From positions 1 through 64,000 of the forward strand of contig DATJZY010000126.1 in NCBI GenBank assembly GCA_035577985.1: 64,000 nt of DNA, in the 5' to 3' direction. Below are positions 27,501 through 38,608 of the stretch, piece after piece. Position numbers and translations under genes: made by a program. The notes under the pieces are model-generated. The model ran no database searches and was not told the DNA's origin. It was given only the letters and a program-made list of their open reading frames with translations. Numbering within the stretch: the stretch's first letter is position 1; each line of letters opens with the position of its first letter. This DNA is from Candidatus Eisenbacteria bacterium. Lineage in GTDB: Bacteria; Desulfobacterota; Binatia; DP-6.

Positions 27501-28622
27501 TCAAGCCGGTTGGCGCGACGATTCGCCCAACGCCGCCTCGATCTCTGCCCGCGCTTCCGCCGACGGCTCGCCGCGCCGGACACCGTCGAGAACGCGGCGC
27601 GCCGCCGCGTCGCCGATGCGCCCGAGCGCCCATGCGACGTGTCCGCGCACGAGCGGATCCGCGTCGCGAATCGCCCCGGCGAGCGCCGGCACCGCGGCCG
27701 GATTGCCGCTGTTGCCGAGCGCCACGGCGGCGTTGCGCACCAGGCCGCGCCGGCCCGTGCGAGTGATCGCCGTGCCGCCGAAGCGGGCGGCGAAGCCGTC
27801 GGCGTCGAGCGCGATCAGCTCGGTGAGCGCCGGGGCGAGCCACGCGGCGGCTGCGACGTCGCGCGCGTCGCCGTTCCAGGGGCACACCTCCTGGCAGACG
27901 TCGCACCCGAACACCCAGTTCTCGAGCAGCGGCCGCAGCTCGTGCGGGATCGCCGAGCGGTGCTCGATCGTCAGGTACGAGATGCAGCGCCGCGGCTCCA
28001 TCGTGTAGCCGTTTTCGAGGGCGCCGGTCGGACACGCGGCGACACAGCGGGTGCAGGTGCCGCAGTGGTCGCGCGGCAGCGGCATGGCGTCGACCTCGAG
28101 GTCCGACACCAGCTCGCCCAGGAAGAAGTACGAGCCGGCGTGGCGGTGCAGCACGAGCGTGTTCTTCCCGATCCATCCGATGCCGGCGCGGCGTGCCCAC
28201 TCGCGCTCGAGGATCGCGCCGGTGTCGACGTACGAGAGGTAGCGCGTGCCGGGAAACAGGCGCGCCAGCGCCTCGGCGAAACGATCGAGACGCCGCCGGA
28301 CGTCGCGGTGGTAGTCGGGCCCGACCGTGTAGGCCGCAATGCGGCCGCGCAGGTGGGTGCGCCAGTCGTCCCGCGGCGGGGCGGGGGGCCGGTAGGGGAC
28401 ACCGACGCACACGAAGCTGCGCGCCCACGGAAACTGCACGCGCGGATCCAGGCGGACGTCGGTGCGCGCCGTGAGGTAGCGCATCTCACCCGCCCGCCCG
28501 TCTGCGAGCCACTGCTCGAGCAGGTCGCCGAGCGGCAGCGGGGTGATCGGGACGCACCCGACGAGCGGAAAGCCGAGCGCTCGCGCCGCCGCCGCGACGA
28601 CGTCTTCCCGACCGCGTGCCAT
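27501..28622 (-). CDS. queG: Epoxyqueuosine reductase QueG
   Basis: Cobalamin and [4Fe-4S] dependent enzyme for the last step of queuosine tRNA modification, about 373 aa. Conserved are the YLTARTDVRLDP and IAAYTVGPDYH blocks, DTGAILEREWARRAGIGWIGKNTLVLHRHAGSYFFLGEL, the ferredoxin-like clusters CGTCTRCVAACPTGA and CDVCQEVCPWN, and CISYLTIEHR. Four to five HEAT-like helices finish the protein. ATG 28622 is chosen; an in-frame ATG at 28634 adds four residues. Neither has a clear ribosome site. It is divergent from the flagellar cluster. Confidence 0.95.
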   Translation of the reverse strand: MARGREDVVAAAARALGFPLVGCVPITPLPLGDLLEQWLADGRAGEMRYLTARTDVRLDPRVQFPWARSFVCVGVPYRPPAPPRDDWRTHLRGRIAAYTVGPDYHRDVRRRLDRFAEALARLFPGTRYLSYVDTGAILEREWARRAGIGWIGKNTLVLHRHAGSYFFLGELVSDLEVDAMPLPRDHCGTCTRCVAACPTGALENGYTMEPRRCISYLTIEHRSAIPHELRPLLENWVFGCDVCQEVCPWNGDARDVAAAAWLAPALTELIALDADGFAARFGGTAITRTGRRGLVRNAAVALGNSGNPAAVPALAGAIRDADPLVRGHVAWALGRIGDAAARRVLDGVRRGEPSAEARAEIEAALGESSRQPA

Positions 28623-28634
28623 CGCGCATGGCAT

Positions 28635-28662
28635 TCAAGCCGAATCACGATCGTGCCGATAG
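28635..28662 (+). promoter_or_regulatory. Sigma28 (FliA)-type promoter of flagellin 1
   Basis: TCAAGCCG (28635-28642), a 12-nt spacer, then GCCGATAG (28655-28662), close to the FliA consensus TAAAGTTT-N11-GCCGATAA. The same layout with the same 12-nt spacer precedes the second flagellin, which strengthens both. It implies that flagellin 1 translation starts at the GTG at 28676 and not upstream. Confidence 0.65.
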
Positions 28663-28675
28663 GGCCTTCGGACCC

Positions 28676-29497
28676 GTGGGATTCGGAATCAACACCAACC
28701 TCCTGTCGCTGAACGCCCAGCGCCACCTCGCCGAGACGGACGAAGCGCTGCGCACGGCGTTCGAGCGGCTCTCGTCGGGACTGCGCATCAACCATGCCTC
28801 CGACGATCCGGCCGGCCTCGCCATCGCCGACCGGCTGAAGCGCGACCAGCGCGTCGCGGCGCAGGGTATCCGCAACGCCAACGACGGCATCTCGCTGCTG
28901 TCCCTGGGTGACCAGGCCCTCGGGCAGATCACGGACATCGTGGCACGCCTCTCCGAGCTGGCCTCCGAGTCGGCGTCGGGCACGCTCACGAACACCGAGC
29001 GTGCCGATCTCCAGGTCGAGTTCGCGCAGCTCGTGGCCGAGGTCGGGCGCATCGCGACCACGACCACGTTCAACGGCGTGGCGCTCCTCGCGGGCGCGAC
29101 CACCATCTCGATCCAGGTCGGCCTCGACGGCACGGCGGCGTCGCGCGTCGACGTCGGCACGGTGGATGCCACCCCCGCCGCGCTCTTCGGCGGGACGCTC
29201 TCGGTCGCGACCGCGGCCGGCGCGCAGAGCGCCCTCGGCGTGCTCACGACCGCCGTCCAGACGGTGGCGAGCGCGCGGGCCGGCTTCGGCGCGGGCGAGA
29301 GTCGCCTCCTCACGGCGATCTCGACCCTGCGTGTCGCCGCGGAGAGCTACGCCCAGGCCGAGAGCCGGATCCGCGACGCCGACATCGCCGCCGAGACCGC
29401 GGCCTTGACGCGCGCACAGATCCTCCAGTCCGCCGGCACGGCCGTCCTCGCCCAGGCGAACCAGCAGCCCGCATTCGCGCTGCAGCTCCTGCGATAG
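28676..29497 (+). CDS. fliC: Flagellin 1
   Basis: Flagellar filament subunit, 273 aa from GTG 28676. It has only the D0/D1 core: N-terminal INTNLLSLNAQRHLAETDEALRTAFERLSSGLRINHASDDPAGLAIADRLKRD, a short central part, and the C-terminal ESYAQAESRIRDADIAAETAALTRAQILQSAGTAVLAQANQQ helix that recruits FliS. D2/D3 surface domains are absent, as in other short flagellins. The frame is open from GTG 28616 and includes an ATG at 28628, but those would add up to 20 residues (MAFKPNHDRADRAFGP) not seen in the paralogue and would place the promoter inside the gene. GTG aligns exactly with the paralogue's ATG. Confidence 0.92.
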   Translation: MGFGINTNLLSLNAQRHLAETDEALRTAFERLSSGLRINHASDDPAGLAIADRLKRDQRVAAQGIRNANDGISLLSLGDQALGQITDIVARLSELASESASGTLTNTERADLQVEFAQLVAEVGRIATTTTFNGVALLAGATTISIQVGLDGTAASRVDVGTVDATPAALFGGTLSVATAAGAQSALGVLTTAVQTVASARAGFGAGESRLLTAISTLRVAAESYAQAESRIRDADIAAETAALTRAQILQSAGTAVLAQANQQPAFALQLLR

Positions 29498-29509
29498 CGC
29501 GGCCGGCGC

Positions 29510-29537
29510 TCAAGTTTTTCACGGGCTCGTCCGATAA
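29510..29537 (+). promoter_or_regulatory. Sigma28 (FliA)-type promoter of flagellin 2
   Basis: TCAAGTTT (29510-29517), 12-nt spacer, TCCGATAA (29530-29537). The -35 box keeps AAGTTT of the consensus and the -10 keeps CCGATAA. The distance from -10 to ATG is 17 nt, so the leader would be very short. It sits 12 nt after the flagellin 1 stop codon. Confidence 0.7.
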
Positions 29538-29554
29538 CACAGGAGGGCTCTCCC

Positions 29555-30379
29555 ATGGCGTTCACGATCAACACGAACCTCCTCGCGCTCAACGCCCAGC
29601 GCCACCTCGCCGAGACGGACGAGGCGCTGCGCACGGCGTTCGAGCGACTGTCGTCGGGCCTGCGGATCAACCACGCCTCCGACGACCCGGCCGGGCTCGC
29701 CATCGCGGATCGCTTGAAGCGCGACCAGCGCGTCGCCGCCCAGGCGATCCGCAACGCCAACGACGGCATCTCGCTGCTCTCGCTGGGCGACCAGGCGCTC
29801 GGACAAGTCTCCGACATCCTCACGCGGCTCTCCGAGCTGGCTTCGCAGTCCGCGTCGGGCACGCTCACCGATCCCGAGCGCGCCTCGCTGCAGCTCGAGT
29901 TCGGCCAGCTCGTGCAGGAGATCGACCGCATCGCGACCACGACCACGTTCAACGGCGTCGTCGTGGCCGGCGGCGTCGGCACCGTCTCGATCCAGGTCGG
30001 GCTCGACGGCACCGCCAGCTCGCGCATCGACGTCTCGACCGTGAACGCGACCACCGCCACACTGTTCGGCGGCGCGACGCTCTCGGTCGACACGGCGGCC
30101 AACGCGCAGACCGCCCTGGGCGCGCTCACGACCGCGATCCAGAGCGTGGCGAGCGGCCGCGCGACGCTGGGCGCGGGCGAGAGCCGGCTCCTCTCCGCCG
30201 TCTCGACCCTGCGCGTGGCGCAGGAGAGCTATGCCCAGGCGGAAAGCCGCATCCGCGACGCCGACGTCGCCGCCGAGACGGCGGCCCTGACGCGCGCCCA
30301 GATCCTGCAGTCGGCAGGAGTTGCCGTCCTGGCACAAGCGAACCAGCAGGCGAAGCTGGTGCTCGAGCTGCTGAAGTAG
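29555..30379 (+). CDS. fliC: Flagellin 2
   Basis: 274-aa flagellin, a tandem paralogue of flagellin 1. The N-terminal 90 residues are nearly identical (NAQRHLAETDEALRTAFERLSSGLRINHASDDPAGLAIADRLKRDQRVAAQ) and the C-terminal SRIRDADVAAETAALTRAQILQSAGVAVLAQANQQ is shared. The middle differs more (VVVAGGVGTVSIQVGLDGTASSRIDVSTVNATTATLF). Again only the D0/D1 domains are present. ATG 29555 has an AGGAGGG ribosome site. The central region is rich in Ser/Thr, which are possible glycosylation sites. Confidence 0.97.
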   Translation: MAFTINTNLLALNAQRHLAETDEALRTAFERLSSGLRINHASDDPAGLAIADRLKRDQRVAAQAIRNANDGISLLSLGDQALGQVSDILTRLSELASQSASGTLTDPERASLQLEFGQLVQEIDRIATTTTFNGVVVAGGVGTVSIQVGLDGTASSRIDVSTVNATTATLFGGATLSVDTAANAQTALGALTTAIQSVASGRATLGAGESRLLSAVSTLRVAQESYAQAESRIRDADVAAETAALTRAQILQSAGVAVLAQANQQAKLVLELLK

Positions 30380-30399
30380 CCCTCCCGGGCCTCGTGCCG

Positions 30400-30415
30400 G
30401 GGCCTGGAACTTGCA
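30400..30415 (+). promoter_or_regulatory. Sigma54 promoter of fliD-fliS
   Basis: GG at 30401-30402 and GC at 30413-30414 are separated by 10 nt, with TTGCA intact at -12. The region reads GGGCCTGGAACTTGCA; compare TGGCACG-N4-TTGCA. The same TGGAACTTGC core occurs before flgB. FlrC in this cluster is a suitable activator. Confidence 0.6.
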
Positions 30416-30440
30416 CGATCCGGCGCGAAGGCGGACCAGC

Positions 30441-31790
30441 ATGGCGGGAATCTCGTTCGGCGGCCTGGCGTCGGGACTCGACAGCGAGGCGATCATCGAG
30501 CAGCTGATGGGGCTCGAGCGCCGTCCGGTCGCGCTCCTGGAGCAGCGGCTCGCCGACCTCACCAAGACCCGCGACGCCGTCGGGACGATCGGGACGAAGC
30601 TCGCGAGCCTGCGCGCCGCCGTGGCGCCGCTCGGCTCGCCGGGCGGAGTCCTCGTCCGTCAGGCGACGTCCACCGACGCCGCCGTGCTCGGCGTCTCGGC
30701 CGGCACCGGTGCCACGCCGGGAACGTATACGATCTCGGTCTTGCATCCGGCCCGGCCGTCGGTTGCGACCTCCTCGGTGCTGCTCGCCGGCACGACCGGA
30801 CCCATCTCCACCGTCGACGGCGTCCTGCGCTTCCAGGTGGGCACCGGACCCGTGCAGTCGGTGGCGGTGTCGCCGACCACGACGCTCGACGACCTCGTGG
30901 CGGCGATTGGTGGCCTCGCGGCCGGCGTCACCGCGTCCGCCGTGAACCTCGGAACCGCGAGCTCGCCGTCCTACACGCTGCGCATCGCGACCACCGCGAC
31001 GGGATCGGATCAGACGATCACGATCCTGCAGGACGACACCGCCATCGGGATCACGACCGCGCAGGCGGGCGACGACGCGGTCTTCACGGTCGACGAGCTC
31101 GGCACGACGTACCAGCGTTCCACCAACACCGTCGACGACGTCCTTCCAGGCGTGACCCTGGTCGTGCGGGGTCCGGGGACGGCCGTCGTCACGGTCGCGG
31201 ACGACGCGGATGCCGTCGTCGCGCGCGTGCAGACGCTCGTCTCGACGTACAACGACCTCCGCACGTTCATCGCCGGCGAGTCCGCCGTCTCGACCGACGC
31301 CGACGCCGGTCTCACGATCGGAAGCCTCGCCGCCGATGCGACCGCGGACCGCGTCGTGCGCGGGCTGCAGCAGGCGATCACGAGCGCCGTCTCGGGGACG
31401 ACCGGAGCGTTCGTCAACCTCTCGGGCCTCGGCGTCACGACCGCACGCGACGGCACGCTGACGCTCGACGAGACGCGTCTGCGAGCGGCGCTCACCGCCG
31501 ATCCCGACGGCGTGGCCGAGGTGGTCTCGGGTGCGTCCGCCTGCACGACGACGCTCATCGACGGACTCACGCAGACGGGCGGGGTGCTGCCGCTCCACGC
31601 CGACGCGCTCGCGCGCCAGTCGCAGGCCCTCGAAGCGTCGATCGCCGCCGGCGAGCGCCAGCTCCAGGGCGTCGAGGCGTCGCTGCGCCGGCAGTTCGAC
31701 GCTCTGGAGACGCTGCTCGCGGATCTGGCGCGGCAGTCGAGCGCGCTCGACGCGCTCACCGGGGCCACCCAGGCCGGCTCGGCGTCGTGA
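30441..31790 (+). CDS. fliD: Flagellar filament capping protein FliD
   Basis: Cap protein that folds flagellin at the filament tip, 449 aa. The N-terminus has the FliD signature ISFGGLASGLDSEAIIEQLMGLERRPVALLEQRLADL, the middle is beta-rich, and the C-terminus has FVNLSGLGVTTARDGTLTLDETRLRAALTADPDGVAEV followed by a coiled coil. ATG 30441 fits the family N-terminus; a longer frame from TTG 30411 would start inside the promoter. It overlaps fliS by GTGA. Confidence 0.95.
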   Translation: MAGISFGGLASGLDSEAIIEQLMGLERRPVALLEQRLADLTKTRDAVGTIGTKLASLRAAVAPLGSPGGVLVRQATSTDAAVLGVSAGTGATPGTYTISVLHPARPSVATSSVLLAGTTGPISTVDGVLRFQVGTGPVQSVAVSPTTTLDDLVAAIGGLAAGVTASAVNLGTASSPSYTLRIATTATGSDQTITILQDDTAIGITTAQAGDDAVFTVDELGTTYQRSTNTVDDVLPGVTLVVRGPGTAVVTVADDADAVVARVQTLVSTYNDLRTFIAGESAVSTDADAGLTIGSLAADATADRVVRGLQQAITSAVSGTTGAFVNLSGLGVTTARDGTLTLDETRLRAALTADPDGVAEVVSGASACTTTLIDGLTQTGGVLPLHADALARQSQALEASIAAGERQLQGVEASLRRQFDALETLLADLARQSSALDALTGATQAGSAS

Positions 31791-32188
31791 CCGCCATGTT
31801 CCCCGCCGAGTACGCGCGACGCTACGCCCACGCACAGATCACGTCGGTCGATCGCGGCCGACTGCTGCTGCTGGTGCTCGAAGGCGGGCAGACGTCCCTC
31901 GGCCGCGCCCGTGCCGCGCTCGACGCCGGCGATCTCGCGCGCTTCGCGCACGAGCGGCGCCGCGCCCAGGACGTCATTGCCGAGCTCCTGCAGACGCTCG
32001 ACCATGCCGCCGGAGGCGAGATCGCCACCAACCTGGCGCGCCTGTACGCGTTCATGCTGGAGCACCTGACGGCCGCCAACGTCGAGCAGAGCGCGCGCCA
32101 CGTCGACGAGGTGCTGCGCGCCTATGCGCCGATCGTCGACGCGTATCGCGCCGTCCTCGCGCGCCCGTTCGCGGGAGGAAAGACGTGA
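31787..32188 (+). CDS. fliS: Flagellin export chaperone FliS
   Basis: 133-aa four-helix chaperone that holds flagellin monomers before export. The pattern YARRYAHAQITSVDRGRLLLLVLEGGQTSLGRARAALDAGDLARFAHERRRAQDVIAELLQTLDHAAGGEIATNLARLYAFMLEHL matches FliS, although its lipid-like first motif reads SVDRGRLLLLVLEG where the family has P-LI-MLYDG. The start is GTG 31787, coupled to fliD. Downstream it overlaps the next gene by GTGA. Confidence 0.92.
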   Translation: MTAMFPAEYARRYAHAQITSVDRGRLLLLVLEGGQTSLGRARAALDAGDLARFAHERRRAQDVIAELLQTLDHAAGGEIATNLARLYAFMLEHLTAANVEQSARHVDEVLRAYAPIVDAYRAVLARPFAGGKT

Positions 32189-32604
32189 CGACGGTGGAGC
32201 TGCAGGCGGCGAGCGAAGAGGAAGCGCGTCGCTATCGCGCGCTCGTCGCCGCCTACGAGGCGATGCTCGCCCTGGTGTCGGACGAGGGTCCGCTCGCGGT
32301 CGCCGGCCTCACCGCCGCTGGTGTGGCGGCCGATGCGGCGCTCGCGACGCTGCGTGAGGTGACGGCGAAGCTCGGGCCCGAGCGCCTGGCCGCACGCGTG
32401 GCGCCGCCGCCGGTCACCGCGCTGTGGCGCGAATCGGCCGCGATCGCCGCGCGCGCCGCCGAGCTCAACGCCGCGCTCGCCGCCGCGACCGCGGCGCGCC
32501 GCGACGCCGTCGCGGGGCGCCTCGCGACGCTGGCCGCGGGCCGCCGCGCGCTCGCGGCCTATCGACCGGCGAGCGTTCCCCGCACGGCCGATCAGCGCGC
32601 CTGA
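32185..32604 (+). CDS. FlgN/FliT-like flagellar chaperone (putative)
   Basis: 139 aa, all-helical, Ala-rich. A GTG start at 32185 overlaps the fliS stop (GTGA), which strongly suggests co-translation. Position after fliS and the C-terminal segment RLATLAAGRRALAAYRP resemble FlgN (chaperone for hook-filament junction proteins) or FliT (chaperone for FliD). Sequence alone does not separate these. No flgK or flgL is in the window. Confidence 0.6.
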   Translation: MTTVELQAASEEEARRYRALVAAYEAMLALVSDEGPLAVAGLTAAGVAADAALATLREVTAKLGPERLAARVAPPPVTALWRESAAIAARAAELNAALAAATAARRDAVAGRLATLAAGRRALAAYRPASVPRTADQRA

Positions 32605-32708
32605 TCGCCGCCGCGGGTCAAGCGCTTGGCGCCGGGGCCAAATCTCCGCGCCGGCGTACCCGCGTGGGCCGTACGCGCCGTCCGGCGCCGGGGCGACGGC
32701 GCCCTGGC

Positions 32709-33800
32709 ATGACTTGCAACGGTCGCCCCGCGATGAAGCACGCGGGCCTCGGGCACGAGCTGCAGCTCGACCTCGACCGCTGGCGCGACGCCACGTCGAC
32801 CCGCGCGGCGGCGTTCGAGGCGGCGATTGCCGAGCGGACCAGCGCTCGCCACGTGATCGCGGTCGCGAGCCCGGCCATGGGTTTTCAGATCGCCTTTCGG
32901 GCCGCCGGCGTGCCGATCGGTGCGACCGTCCTCACGACGTCGCTCGCCGACCCGTCGGTGGCGCGCGCGACCGTCGGCAGCGGGCTCCAGCCGCGCTTCG
33001 TCGACATCGACCTGCACGGGCACCTCGGCGCCGCCGCGGTGCGCGCGCACGTCGCGCTCCACGGCGAGCCCGCGGTGCTCGTGCCGTCGTGCTTCGCCGG
33101 TCATCCCTGCGACGTCGACGCGGTCGCCGCGGAGGCGCCGCACGCACTTCTCGTGGAGGATGCGACCGACGCGCTCGGCGGCGTGCGGCCGGACGGCCGT
33201 GCCGTCGGATCGCCCAACCCCGCGACCATCGCCGTGCTCGGCATTCCCGCCGTGCGCGCCGCGCCGGCGCAGGGCGCCGTGCTCGTGACCGACGACGACC
33301 TGCTGGCGGACCGCGTGCGCCGCCTGCGCGACGAGCGTGGCGAGCACCAGCTCTCGGAGCTCCACGCCGCGCTCGGGCTCGTCCAGATCGGGCGGCTCGC
33401 CGAGGTCGTGGCGCTGCGCGAGTCGGTCGCCGCGCGCTATGACGCCGTCGTCGCCGGCCTGGCGCTGGCGGAGCCCGTGCTGCCGCCGGCGCACGCGCGC
33501 TCGGCGTGGGCGGCGTATCCGCTCCGGGTTCCGGCGTGGCTGCGTCCGGCCGTCCTCGAGCCGCTGCGGGCCTGGGGCGTCGGCGGACATCGGCTGGTGA
33601 TGCTGCTCCACCGCCATCCGTATCTCGGCCGCTACGCAGACGTGCTGCCTGCGGCGCTGCCCGCGACCGAGCGCTTCGCGAGCGAAGTCGTCCTCCTGCC
33701 GACCGGCTCGGTGTCCGGCGACGCGGAGGTGACGCGGGTCGCGGGACTCCTCGCGGCGACGGTGGGAGGCGGGGCGGAACGTGCGCATCGCGCTGGGTGA
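32709..33800 (+). CDS. DegT/DnrJ/EryC1-family aminotransferase homologue lacking the PLP lysine
   Basis: 363 aa from ATG 32709 (ATG 32733 is an alternative; neither has a good ribosome site). The fold of sugar aminotransferases is clear: HVIAVASPAMGFQIAFRAAG (usually avSSGTaAL), RFVDIDLHG, LLVEDATDALGG (Asp contacting the PLP ring kept), GAVLVTDDDLLADRVRRLRDERG and SELHAALGLVQIGRL. At the Schiff-base position the family has F-(h)-x-x-K-N; here it is IPAVRAA, with Arg183 in place of Lys. The Ser-Gly-Thr phosphate loop is also changed to Ser-Pro-Ala. Transamination is therefore unlikely. Its stop overlaps the NeuB-like gene by 20 nt. Family relatives such as PseC act in flagellin sugar synthesis. 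Confidence 0.82.
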   Translation: MTCNGRPAMKHAGLGHELQLDLDRWRDATSTRAAAFEAAIAERTSARHVIAVASPAMGFQIAFRAAGVPIGATVLTTSLADPSVARATVGSGLQPRFVDIDLHGHLGAAAVRAHVALHGEPAVLVPSCFAGHPCDVDAVAAEAPHALLVEDATDALGGVRPDGRAVGSPNPATIAVLGIPAVRAAPAQGAVLVTDDDLLADRVRRLRDERGEHQLSELHAALGLVQIGRLAEVVALRESVAARYDAVVAGLALAEPVLPPAHARSAWAAYPLRVPAWLRPAVLEPLRAWGVGGHRLVMLLHRHPYLGRYADVLPAALPATERFASEVVLLPTGSVSGDAEVTRVAGLLAATVGGGAERAHRAG

Positions 33801-34674
33801 GCGCGCGCTCGGCGCCGACGCGCCGGCCCTCGTCGTTGCCGAGATCGGCTCCAACCACGACGGCAGCCTCGAGCGGGCGCTCGCGCTCGTCGACCTGGCC
33901 GCACGCGCCGGCGCCGACGGGGTGCAGTTCCACTCGTTCCATGCGGCCGCGCTGCCGCTGGAGCCCGGGCCCGATGGTGGCTCGGTGGCCGCGGAGGTGC
34001 ACCGGCAGCTCGAGCGCGCGGAGCTGCGCACCGAATGGCATGCGCCCCTGCGCGAGCGCGCGCTGGCTCGCGGGCTCGTGTTCCTCTCGATCGCCTTCGA
34101 CGCACAGCGCGCCGAGCTGCTGGCGGCGCTCGGCGTGCCGGCCATCGCCGTGGCGTCCCGCGATCTCGGGCGCGCGCCGTTGCTCCGGACGCTCGGCGGC
34201 TTCGGTCGTCCACTGCTGCTCGCCACCGGCGGCGCAGCCGAGAGCGAGATCGCGGCGGCGCTGGCTGCCATCGGCGAGGGCGCCGGCGCTCCGTCGAGGC
34301 GCCCGCCGGTCGTGCTCGTCGCCGGCCCGGACGGTGCGCGCAGCGAAGACGCCGATCTCCGTACCCTCGGCACGCTACGGACGCGGTTTGGCTGTCCCGT
34401 CGGCTGGACCGATCGCTCGCCGGGCAGCGCCCTCGCATTGGGAGCGGTCACGCTCGGGGCGTGCTTCGTCGTGAAAGGGCTCACCGACGACCGCGGCCGG
34501 CGCGGACCGGACCACGCCACGGCGCTCGAGCCGGGCGATCTCGCCGCCGTGGTGCGGGCCGTGCGCGAGCTCGGGTACGCGCTGCGACCCGCGCCGCGGA
34601 ACGCGTCGGGCGTCGGACGCGAGGGTGACGTCCCGGCCGCTGCGAAGCGTGGCTTCGGGAGCCGGGCGGGGTAG
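33781..34674 (+). CDS. NeuB/PseI-family nonulosonate synthase homologue, catalytically degenerate
   Basis: 297 aa from GTG 33781. The TIM-barrel fold of sialic/pseudaminic acid synthases is plain: VVAEIGSNHDGSLERAL, LLLATGGAAESEI, and GPDHATALEPGDL. Yet the active site is altered: VKFQ reads VQFH (49-51), FLSTPFD reads FLSIAFD, YKIaS reads IAVAS (Lys lost at 123), SDH reads TDR (Arg212) and EKH reads VKG (Gly233). Positions 212 and 233 correspond to the two Mn-binding His of meningococcal NeuB, which have the same 21-residue spacing. The C-terminal SAF/antifreeze-like domain is missing. The frame is intact with strong codon bias, so it looks like a maintained pseudoenzyme. Confidence 0.82.
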   Translation: MRIALGERALGADAPALVVAEIGSNHDGSLERALALVDLAARAGADGVQFHSFHAAALPLEPGPDGGSVAAEVHRQLERAELRTEWHAPLRERALARGLVFLSIAFDAQRAELLAALGVPAIAVASRDLGRAPLLRTLGGFGRPLLLATGGAAESEIAAALAAIGEGAGAPSRRPPVVLVAGPDGARSEDADLRTLGTLRTRFGCPVGWTDRSPGSALALGAVTLGACFVVKGLTDDRGRRGPDHATALEPGDLAAVVRAVRELGYALRPAPRNASGVGREGDVPAAAKRGFGSRAG

Positions 34675-34684
34675 AACTCGCCGC

Positions 34685-35593
34685 GTGTCCGCGCCGCCTC
34701 GTCTGGTCGCGATCGCGATCGTGGCGAATCTCATCGGGGGCACGTCGTACGTCCTCACCAAGATCGCGCTCGAGGGCCTGACCGAGACGACGCTCATCGT
34801 CGTGCGGACGGTCGTGGCACTGGCGGTGCTCGTGCCGATCGCGGGCCGGCGTCTGTGGCCGCTCCTGCGTGCCGCCGGCGGCGATCGGCGGCGCCTCCTC
34901 GCGATGGGCGCGCTCGGCTACGCGCTGCCGCTCGTGCTCGGGAGCTACGGCGTGCGGCGCTCGACCGCGACCAACGCGGCACTCCTCATCGGTACCGAGC
35001 CGCTGGCCGTGGTCGTGCTGGGCGCCCTTCTTCTGGGGGAACCTCTCACGAGAGCGCGCATCGTGGCGCTCGCTCTCGGCGTCTCGGGGGCGACGATCCT
35101 GGTCACGAACGGGATCCCGCTCCTCACCGTCGCCTACGCGCCGCACCTGACCGGCGATCTCCTGCTCGTGATCCACGGCGCGGCGTGGGCGATCTACACG
35201 ATCGCGGGCAAGAGCCTGCTCGAGCGCTACGACCCGATCGCGGTCGCGACGGCGTCGCTCGCCGTCGCGCTGCCGCTGCTCGCCCCGCTGGCGGCGTTCG
35301 AGCTGCCGGGGATCGTATGGGAGTGGCCGCGCCTCGCTCCGGCCCTCGCGGCGGCCGTGACGCTCGGCCTCGTCGTGTCGGCGCTCATGACCGTGCTGTG
35401 GACGACGGCGCTCCGGGGCATGGACGCGTCGTACCTCGCCGGCTTCATCTTCCTGCAGCCGCTGGCCGGCGTCGCGCTCGGCGCACTCATCCTCGGGGAG
35501 CGCGTGACGCCCTTCGTGCTCGCGGGCGGCGGGCTCGTCCTTGCTGCCGTCTACGTCCTGATCCTCGAGTCGCGGGCTCGGGGGGCTTCGTAG
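34685..35593 (+). CDS. EamA-family (DMT superfamily) transporter
   Basis: 302-aa inner-membrane protein with ten hydrophobic helices arranged as two EamA repeats (about 10-135 and 150-295). The second repeat ends YLAGFIFLQPLAGVALGALILGERVTPFVLAGGGLVLAAVYVLI, the usual E-R turn of the family. Members export metabolites, amino acids or sugar precursors. The start is GTG 34685, 10 nt after the NeuB-like stop, so it probably belongs to the same three-gene unit. Substrate unknown. Confidence 0.88.
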   Translation: MSAPPRLVAIAIVANLIGGTSYVLTKIALEGLTETTLIVVRTVVALAVLVPIAGRRLWPLLRAAGGDRRRLLAMGALGYALPLVLGSYGVRRSTATNAALLIGTEPLAVVVLGALLLGEPLTRARIVALALGVSGATILVTNGIPLLTVAYAPHLTGDLLLVIHGAAWAIYTIAGKSLLERYDPIAVATASLAVALPLLAPLAAFELPGIVWEWPRLAPALAAAVTLGLVVSALMTVLWTTALRGMDASYLAGFIFLQPLAGVALGALILGERVTPFVLAGGGLVLAAVYVLILESRARGAS

Positions 35594-36005: not shown

Positions 36006-36124
36006 TCCGACGCCACGGGCACGCGAAGTCATTCCCTTGTCCCGCCCGGTCAGGACGCTGGCCGCCCTCGGCAAAAGAGACCACGTAGGCACGGGCTGCC
36101 GGCCTGGCACCCACCTTGCTCCCC

Positions 36125-38608
36125 ATGCGTGTCGTGCGACGGACGCGGGTGTGGTGGTGGTGGAGCTGGCTCACGGTGGTTGTTGTGGCTGTGGGGTTGG
36201 CTGGAGCCGCAGATGAGGTTGATGGTCCGTCGCCGAACGGTGGTGTGACGGGGCGGGGCCGTGAGGCCCCGTCCCTCCCCATCGAAGTCCAGGACGTCCA
36301 GCTCTGGCGCGAGCCGCCCGCGCTGCGGGTGGAGACGTCGGGACCCGTGAAGCCGACTGTGACGGTGGTGCCGCCGACGCGTGAGACGCCGCCTCGCATC
36401 GAGGTCGAGGTGCCGGCGTGGGTGCCGGGGCGGACGACGCCGCTCGTGGGGCAGGGTCTCGTTCGCCGCGTGCGACTCGTGAAGACGCCGTCCCATGGGA
36501 CGCGCTTCGTGATCGAGCTCACCGCGCCGGCCGGACACCGGCTGCGCGTGAACGACCGGACGATCACCGTTCAGCTCCGACCGGGTGAGGCGATGCCGGT
36601 CGTCGCCAAGGCCGCGCCGGAGGCCGCCGAGCCACGGCTCGCCAACATGACGCTCGTCGAGGATCCGGCCGCATCCGAAGCGTCGCCGGCGCCGCCCGCG
36701 CCGCCCGCGCAGGTCGAGCACCCGGGACCCGACGACGCCGAGCCGGTCGATCCGGCGCCCGCGCCGGAGCTCCGGACGCAGGAGGTGGCGGCGCCGCCGC
36801 AGGACGACGCGCCCGCGACGGCGGACCTCGGCCTCACGATCGAGCGTGGCGCGCGCTTCGCGTGGCCGAACCTCGACGCACCGTACTACGCCGACCAGAG
36901 CGCGGCGCCCGAACGTCTGGCGCTGAAGGCCTGGCGGCAGGGAACGCCGGCGCTCCCGGCCCCCGCCGCGTACGGGACGCCGGCGACACTCTATCTCGCC
37001 GCCGACGTGACGTATCTGCGCACCCTGCTGGGGCAGGACGAGCCGCTCGCCGGGCCGCAGGCATACGAGCGCGCCCTGCGCGTCGCGCCCGCCTTTCCGG
37101 ACGCGCCGCGTGCGCTCGTGATGCTTGGCTTCGCGAACCTCGGCATCGGCCTCGCGCCCGAGGCGGAGCTCGCGTTCACGCGCGTCGTGCGCGAGCATCG
37201 GGACAGTCCCTACGCCGCGGTGGCGGCGGTGGGGCGCGCCTCGGCGCTGCGCGCCCGACGTCGCTTCGACGAGGCGCGCGCCGCGCTGGCGCCGCTCGGC
37301 GATCATCCGCCGGTCGAGATCGCGTGCGACGCGCTCGCCGAGCGTGCGGCGCTCGCCCGCGCCAGCGGCGCGCACGACGAGGCGGCGCCGCTCGACGAGC
37401 AGGTGGCGCGCGACTGCCCGCGCCTGGGCGCGCTCGCCTCGGTGATCGAGGGACGGGCGGACTCGCTGCTCGCCCTGGGCCGGCGCGCCGACGCGCGCGC
37501 GCTGCTCGCGCAGGAGAGTCAGGCGCTCACCGCCGACGAGCAGGCGCGCCTCCTCGTCCGGGCGGCCGAGCTGGCGCACGACGACGGCGACACCGAGGGC
37601 GCGCGCCGCGCGCTCGATCGCGTGCTCGGCCTGCGGGTCTCGACGGCGCTGCGGTCGATTGCCCAGGCGCACCTGGCGCGGCTCGACGGCCTGGTCGCGC
37701 CCGATCGCGCCGTCGAGTCGCTCGAGCACCTCGCGGCGACGGCGCAGACGCCCGCGAGCCGCGCCGGGATCGTGGAGCAGATCGCGGAGACGCTCGCCGA
37801 CGCGGGTCGCTTCGAGGCGGCGCTCGCCCGGCTCGGGCGCACCGCCGATGCCGACGGCGGCTCGATGCGGTTCGACGCGCGCGCCGACGCGATCCTCGCG
37901 CGCTGGCTCGCCCGGCTCGCCGAAGCCGGCGACGTGGTCGGGATCGCGACCGTCTATGCGGCCCATCGCACGGCGATCGACACACGGGCACAGGTCGGCA
38001 CGACGCTCATCGTCGCCGACGCGCTCGGACGGGTGGGGCTGCCGGTGGCGGCGCTGCGCCTCCTGCGCCTGCGAGAGAGCGACGACGATCCGCTGCTGGC
38101 GCTCACGATCGCCGAGGCGGCCGTCGCGGCGAATGAGCCGGTGGTCGCACACGAGGCGCTCGCGCGCGTGGCCGATCGGGACCTCGCGACCGAGCTGGCG
38201 ACGCGCCGGGCGAGCGTCGGCGTGCGCGTGGCGATCCTCGACGGCGATCTCGAGCGGGCGACCGGCGAGGTCGACGACACCGGCGATCCGCTCGTCGCGC
38301 AGGCGCTCGCGGCGGCCTGGATCACGCGCGGCGACGCCGCCGCGGCACACGAGAGCTGGGAGACGGCGCGCGCGGCTTACGAGCGCGCGCGCTCGATCGC
38401 GACCGATCGGGTGCAGCGCACGACCGCGACGGCGGGGCTGGTGTCGGCGTCGGCGGCCAGCGAGCATGCCGTTCCCGAAGCCGTCGACGCGCTCGGGCTG
38501 CTCGACGATCCGGTCGTGAAGCAAGGGGTGGCGCTGCTCGCGACGACGCGGCCGTTCGGCGGGACGCTCGCGAGCGCCCCGGTCACCGAGGAAGCGAATG
38601 CTCGCTGA
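36125..38608 (+). CDS. Exported AMIN-like plus TPR-repeat protein
   Basis: 827 aa. An unusual Trp-rich signal segment (MRVVRRTRVWWWWSWLTVVVVAVGLAGA) leads to an AMIN-like beta domain (about 55-155: VQDVQLWREPPALRVETSGPV through RLRVNDRTITVQLRPGEAMPV), the type that localises proteins to peptidoglycan. A Pro/Ala linker follows, then about 550 residues of degenerate tetratricopeptide-like helical hairpins (for example YERALRVAPAFPDAPRALVMLGFANLGIGLAPEAELAFTRVV). It overlaps the kinase gene by 11 nt. Placement at the head of the flrBC pair suggests a role in flagellar assembly or its sensing, as an inference. Confidence 0.82.
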   Translation: MRVVRRTRVWWWWSWLTVVVVAVGLAGAADEVDGPSPNGGVTGRGREAPSLPIEVQDVQLWREPPALRVETSGPVKPTVTVVPPTRETPPRIEVEVPAWVPGRTTPLVGQGLVRRVRLVKTPSHGTRFVIELTAPAGHRLRVNDRTITVQLRPGEAMPVVAKAAPEAAEPRLANMTLVEDPAASEASPAPPAPPAQVEHPGPDDAEPVDPAPAPELRTQEVAAPPQDDAPATADLGLTIERGARFAWPNLDAPYYADQSAAPERLALKAWRQGTPALPAPAAYGTPATLYLAADVTYLRTLLGQDEPLAGPQAYERALRVAPAFPDAPRALVMLGFANLGIGLAPEAELAFTRVVREHRDSPYAAVAAVGRASALRARRRFDEARAALAPLGDHPPVEIACDALAERAALARASGAHDEAAPLDEQVARDCPRLGALASVIEGRADSLLALGRRADARALLAQESQALTADEQARLLVRAAELAHDDGDTEGARRALDRVLGLRVSTALRSIAQAHLARLDGLVAPDRAVESLEHLAATAQTPASRAGIVEQIAETLADAGRFEAALARLGRTADADGGSMRFDARADAILARWLARLAEAGDVVGIATVYAAHRTAIDTRAQVGTTLIVADALGRVGLPVAALRLLRLRESDDDPLLALTIAEAAVAANEPVVAHEALARVADRDLATELATRRASVGVRVAILDGDLERATGEVDDTGDPLVAQALAAAWITRGDAAAAHESWETARAAYERARSIATDRVQRTTATAGLVSASAASEHAVPEAVDALGLLDDPVVKQGVALLATTRPFGGTLASAPVTEEANAR

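Follow-up and report, generated by a model that had tools for sequence, protein, structure and literature searches.

Do two adjacent, overlapping genes of enzyme ancestry, both without the residues needed for catalysis and both placed directly after flagellar genes, represent a new joint function or the leftovers of an old one? The question is raised by a locus in a 64,000 nt stretch of contig DATJZY010000126.1 (the window), which belongs to a genome of Candidatus Eisenbacteria bacterium (G000; 99.5% complete, 191 contigs). The initial annotation described a DegT-like gene, a NeuB-like gene and an EamA transporter gene as a conserved-looking cassette, and read the coupling of the first two as joint neofunctionalisation.

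Gene layout and flagellar setting

All three ORFs lie on the + strand and are arranged as first described. The DegT-type gene (32709..33800; ATG start, 363 aa; Pfam DegT_DnrJ_EryC1, E=2e-37) overlaps the NeuB/PseI-type gene (33781..34674; GTG start, 297 aa; Pfam NeuB, PF03102, E=1.5e-40) by 20 nt (33781..33800), and a gap of 10 nt (34675-34684) separates the latter from the gene for EamA, a drug/metabolite transporter (34685..35593; GTG start; Pfam EamA, E=1e-36). The flagellar setting was also as annotated, with family scans detecting two flagellins, FliD, FliS and a FlgN-like protein encoded immediately 5' of the pair on the same strand (28616..32604). Between the flgN-like and DegT-type genes is an interval (32605..32708, + strand) whose equivalent place in a relative, G001, is occupied by the PseB gene.

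A sigma-28-like site, TCAAG-N15-GCCGATAG, is found at 28635-28661, upstream of the first flagellin, and sites of this type also lie ahead of the flagellins in G001 and in another genome, G005. Since the mechanical ORF start of the first flagellin (28616) is upstream of this site, the true start is probably further downstream. A sequence 5' of the DegT-type gene (TCAAG-N14-GCCAAAT, 32618-32643) resembles the flagellin promoter, and in the window such a pattern occurs no more often than expected by chance. Beyond the EamA gene, at 36116-38608, there is a CDS for an 830-aa secreted-looking protein with weak TPR matches and an AMIN-like N-terminal domain suspected by eye, and 3' of it are genes for a histidine kinase and then an NtrC-type regulator.

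An intact operon at the equivalent site of a related genome

G001, a member of the same family but of another genus, shows synteny with the window across a DHH-type gene, QueG, flagellin, fliD, fliS and flgN. Directly 3' of flgN it carries genes for PseB, PseC, a full NeuB with its SAF domain, a KdsB/NeuA-like cytidylyltransferase and two further proteins. Its PseB (500 bits) and PseC (449 bits, with the lysine present) are both above the NCBIfam cut-offs. The tail of this operon (L010:12754-19214) is unusual, consisting of a glutamate-1-semialdehyde aminomutase-like (PRK06209-type) gene followed by one for a Gfo/Idh oxidoreductase. Protein trees place the window genes as sister to the G001 genes (support 0.998/0.999), and among the members of the family that were examined, only G001 has a close NeuB (57–64% identical).

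The common ancestor of G000 and G001 had this operon, and the window lineage has since lost the pathway. What survives as the pair is the central portion of an operon for a flagellar nonulosonate (pseudaminic/neuraminic acid-type), and its flagellar position is inherited from the intact version. The proposal that the parent enzymes were of the PseC and NeuB/PseI types and belonged to one such pathway is borne out by the intact operon at the same site. The reading of gene coupling as a sign of joint neofunctionalisation is not, because in G001, where pseC and neuB are intact, the two also overlap by 20 nt with an identical arrangement of start and stop codons, and the coupling is inherited. This serves as a warning that inherited operon structure should not be taken as evidence for a new joint function. 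The two loci also offer a clean view of flagellar nonulosonate synthesis before and after its loss: at one and the same position, one genus of the family has an intact operon and another a catalytically dead remnant.

Loss of catalytic features

The initial annotation held that both proteins had lost catalysis, and this was upheld for each. In the NeuB-type protein, with catalytic positions given in Neisseria numbering, K53, Q55 and K129 correspond to Q49, H51 and A123 of the window protein, and Y186, H215, E234 and H236 to D184, R212, V231 and G233. Both Mn ligands (H215/H236, now R212/G233) and both PEP lysines (K53/K129, now Q49/A123) are therefore replaced; these four residues are conserved across about 50 further NeuB sequences in every case where the region concerned is covered. 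The C-terminal SAF (antifreeze-like) domain, which bears an active-site arginine, is absent, the window protein stopping at residue 297, and the score against the NCBIfam synthase profiles (TIGR03569, TIGR03586) is 172 bits, with a cut-off of 399.65. The sequence shows that the protein, without the metal ligands, PEP-binding residues and capping domain, is incapable of the parent reaction as understood. In the +1 frame of window positions 34625-34665, the sequence RPLRSVAS (near 34631) is found at the distance at which intact NeuB has ARRSxYA. The RPLRSV stretch could possibly be the frameshifted start of the SAF domain, and is too short to be claimed as such.

The DegT-type protein scores 79–123 bits against the PseC profile (TIGR03588), under the NCBIfam cut-off of 423.5. 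The catalytic PLP lysine of the SFHPxK motif is absent, its position being taken by R183 in a pairwise alignment or V182 in a multiple alignment, and the only lysine in the entire protein is K10. Most of the PLP and substrate loops have been lost, and there is a 23-aa in-frame deletion before and at the FNYR loop. By its sequence the protein has no capacity to form a Schiff base and so is unable to carry out the parent reaction as understood.

That the two proteins might be enzymes with relocated or different chemistry is highly improbable. A few ligand-type residues are left (E21, S126 and D244 in NeuB; D151 in DegT), but the sole lysine of DegT lies in the low-confidence tail of its structure model, and NeuB has neither its metal histidines, nor its PEP lysines, nor the SAF domain needed for a complete active site.

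The losses extend beyond the pair. The window lineage lacks PseB, the C-terminal domain of NeuB and every operon gene further downstream, and replacements were not found in G000. A second NeuB was not detected anywhere in the genome, no PseB scored above cut-off in G000 (best, 48 bits), and the single cytidylyltransferase-family match scores like the KdsB-like chromosomal copies of relatives. Other PseC-like aminotransferases occur elsewhere in G000, as they do in all relatives. Whole-genome searches of G000 and G001 for a motility-accessory glycosyltransferase (PF01973) found none, and no acceptor enzyme was found. At the window site there is no convincing match to remnants of PseB, the SAF domain, the cytidylyltransferase or the later genes, and no PseB remnant is detectable within 32605..32708. 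With PseB, the NeuB C-terminal domain and the downstream genes lost, the nonulosonate pathway is dead in the window lineage.

The EamA gene and searches for further examples

The EamA gene had been included in the cassette as an exporter, but it is an unrelated neighbour, outside the ancestral operon and any conserved cassette. No EamA match at E<1e-5 was found beside other NeuB genes (about 50 loci, with flanks of up to 10 kb). The best match in G001 is 34% identical and located elsewhere, while a relative with 63% identity, in G037 (a genome of the same class but another family), is flanked by unrelated genes which, as read from the sequence, code for a carboxylase and an Fe-S protein. We infer that the rearrangement which deleted the 3' portion of the operon may also have introduced the EamA gene.

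Apart from that of G001, no NeuB more than 41% identical was found in 148 genomes of the class and a 395-genome sample of the phylum, and no second DegT of the window kind in 145 class genomes. A scan of GTDB contigs gave NeuBs of up to 46% identity among the matches listed, all with catalytic residues. The dead DegT-NeuB pair was found in G000 and in no other genome searched, and neither a dead NeuB nor a dead PseC-NeuB pair is described in the literature searched. The gene-neighbourhood check suggested in the initial annotation thus gave no second example of the pair in the class and phylum samples, and the DegT-NeuB-EamA arrangement did not recur in the other genomes searched. This largely agrees with one of the outcomes that the initial annotation had listed as speaking against it.

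For these reasons a jointly neofunctionalised DegT-NeuB-EamA cassette that acts on flagellin or its sugar is very unlikely: the flagellin genes are adjacent and the genes are coupled, but both the position and the overlap go back to the intact operon, EamA is unrelated, and the genomes searched hold no second example. Nor does anything point to the lectin-like or flagellin-acting complex that had been envisaged.

Decay or retention

A more serious alternative is decay in progress, in which constraint was strongly relaxed after pathway loss and the genes, with no present function, are on their way out. PseB, the SAF domain, the cytidylyltransferase and the downstream genes have already disappeared, and the dead pair is a singleton among the genomes searched. 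The DegT-type protein has lost 59% of its conserved columns, many of them outside the active site, and the window branches are 4–6 times longer than those of G001 (0.77 vs 0.18 for NeuB, 1.63 vs 0.27 for DegT). The initial annotation had itself named recent decay beside intact relatives as one case against its proposal; intact pse homologues do exist at the same site in G001, but that the decay is recent is doubtful.

Neutral drift was simulated with the G001 genes as the starting point and stopped once conserved columns had been lost in the proportion observed, under an assumed mutation spectrum, an assumed indel rate (5% of substitutions) and with the G001 gene assumed as ancestor. For the first tests, 13 columns in NeuB and 17 in DegT were taken as active-site columns. 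In NeuB, 9/13 of these were lost, compared with 5/28 other conserved columns (Fisher 0.003, neutral P 0.007-0.02), and in DegT 14/17 compared with 45/83 (Fisher 0.03, neutral P 0.013-0.06). The NeuB test was repeated with a published list (PMC6795526), which gave 7/9 lost vs 8/33 (Fisher 0.005, neutral P 0.02-0.03); restriction to strictly conserved columns gave a neutral P of 0.02-0.08. Hydrophobic columns have largely stayed so, the retained proportion being 0.93 in NeuB (neutral, 0.79-0.81; P 0.003-0.023) and 0.82 in DegT (neutral, 0.60-0.65; P<0.004). The GC content at second codon positions of DegT has not drifted either (0.549 vs neutral 0.63-0.76).

The absence of stop codons is by itself uninformative at the GC content of the window. 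Neither gene has a frame-breaking indel, the visible indels are multiples of three, and all clearly homologous segments of the pair stay in one frame, whereas about 7 (NeuB) and 24 (DegT) indels would be expected over the neutral time needed at the 5% ratio. Fourfold-site divergence of the pair from G001 is in line with that of the flanking genes, and GC3 is native. In codon maximum likelihood (branch omega), synonymous divergence was at the upper bound, i.e. saturated, and no omega was derived.

Pure neutral drift appears to fit these data poorly, since frame-breaking indels are absent, hydrophobic positions are spared and losses are concentrated in the active sites, in what is a single genome with a heavily eroded DegT. 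The earlier suggestion that the proteins stayed folded while catalysis was lost gains some statistical support from the same observations in this one genome. Decay in progress falls a little short of an even chance.

The best explanation, to which we give an even chance, is an operon remnant whose two proteins are still kept, or were until recently, in a folded but non-catalytic state. The ancestor of G000 and G001 carried the nonulosonate operon after flgN, and the pathway ended in the window lineage when PseB, the C-terminal domain of NeuB and everything further downstream were lost. The remaining two genes kept their reading frame, overlap and, judging by the statistics of this one genome, fold while their active sites eroded. 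DegT would now be a dimer-type aminotransferase fold unable to form a PLP Schiff base, and NeuB a TIM barrel unable to bind Mn2+ or PEP. Retention as folded non-catalytic proteins is plausible, the pair may still serve a non-enzymatic purpose, and a binding or scaffold role is inferred. That two consecutive enzymes of one sugar pathway jointly became a kept, folded, non-catalytic pair after the pathway was lost is a tentative and rather doubtful proposition. If selection does keep the dead proteins, this would be a rare bacterial case of coupled pathway enzymes turned pseudoenzymes; loss of active sites with folds and reading frames spared is unusual.

Structure models and comparison with known systems

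AlphaFold models, which were built on alignments of intact relatives and test foldability weakly, reached a pLDDT of 89.2 for NeuB and 85.1 for DegT. The top matches of the NeuB model are Neisseria NeuB and Campylobacter PseI (PDB 1xuu, 8h2c; TM 0.81 to 1xuu). The barrel domain is shared with the NeuB/PseI synthases, and the window protein differs from them in having neither the catalytic residues nor the SAF domain. The DegT model has the fold type I aminotransferase architecture and matches ArnB/PseC (TM ~0.8), and the former PLP-lysine loop (181-187) is its sole internal stretch with pLDDT <50. The window DegT, although under the cut-off for PseC (UDP-4-amino-4,6-dideoxy-N-acetyl-beta-L-altrosamine transaminase), shares with the PseC/ArnB group its fold, gene position and overlap with NeuB, and is sister to the intact G001 PseC; it differs in the loss of the PLP lysine and most of the PLP and substrate loops.

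The roles known for pseudoenzymes are those of an allosteric partner, a scaffold or a competitor (PMC10211241). In trypanosomatid deoxyhypusine synthase, a retained dead paralogue activates a live partner (PMC3663545). Unlike that system, G000 has no live NeuB for the window protein to partner, but the two are alike in that a dead enzyme has been kept with its frame and, as far as the statistics indicate, its fold intact.
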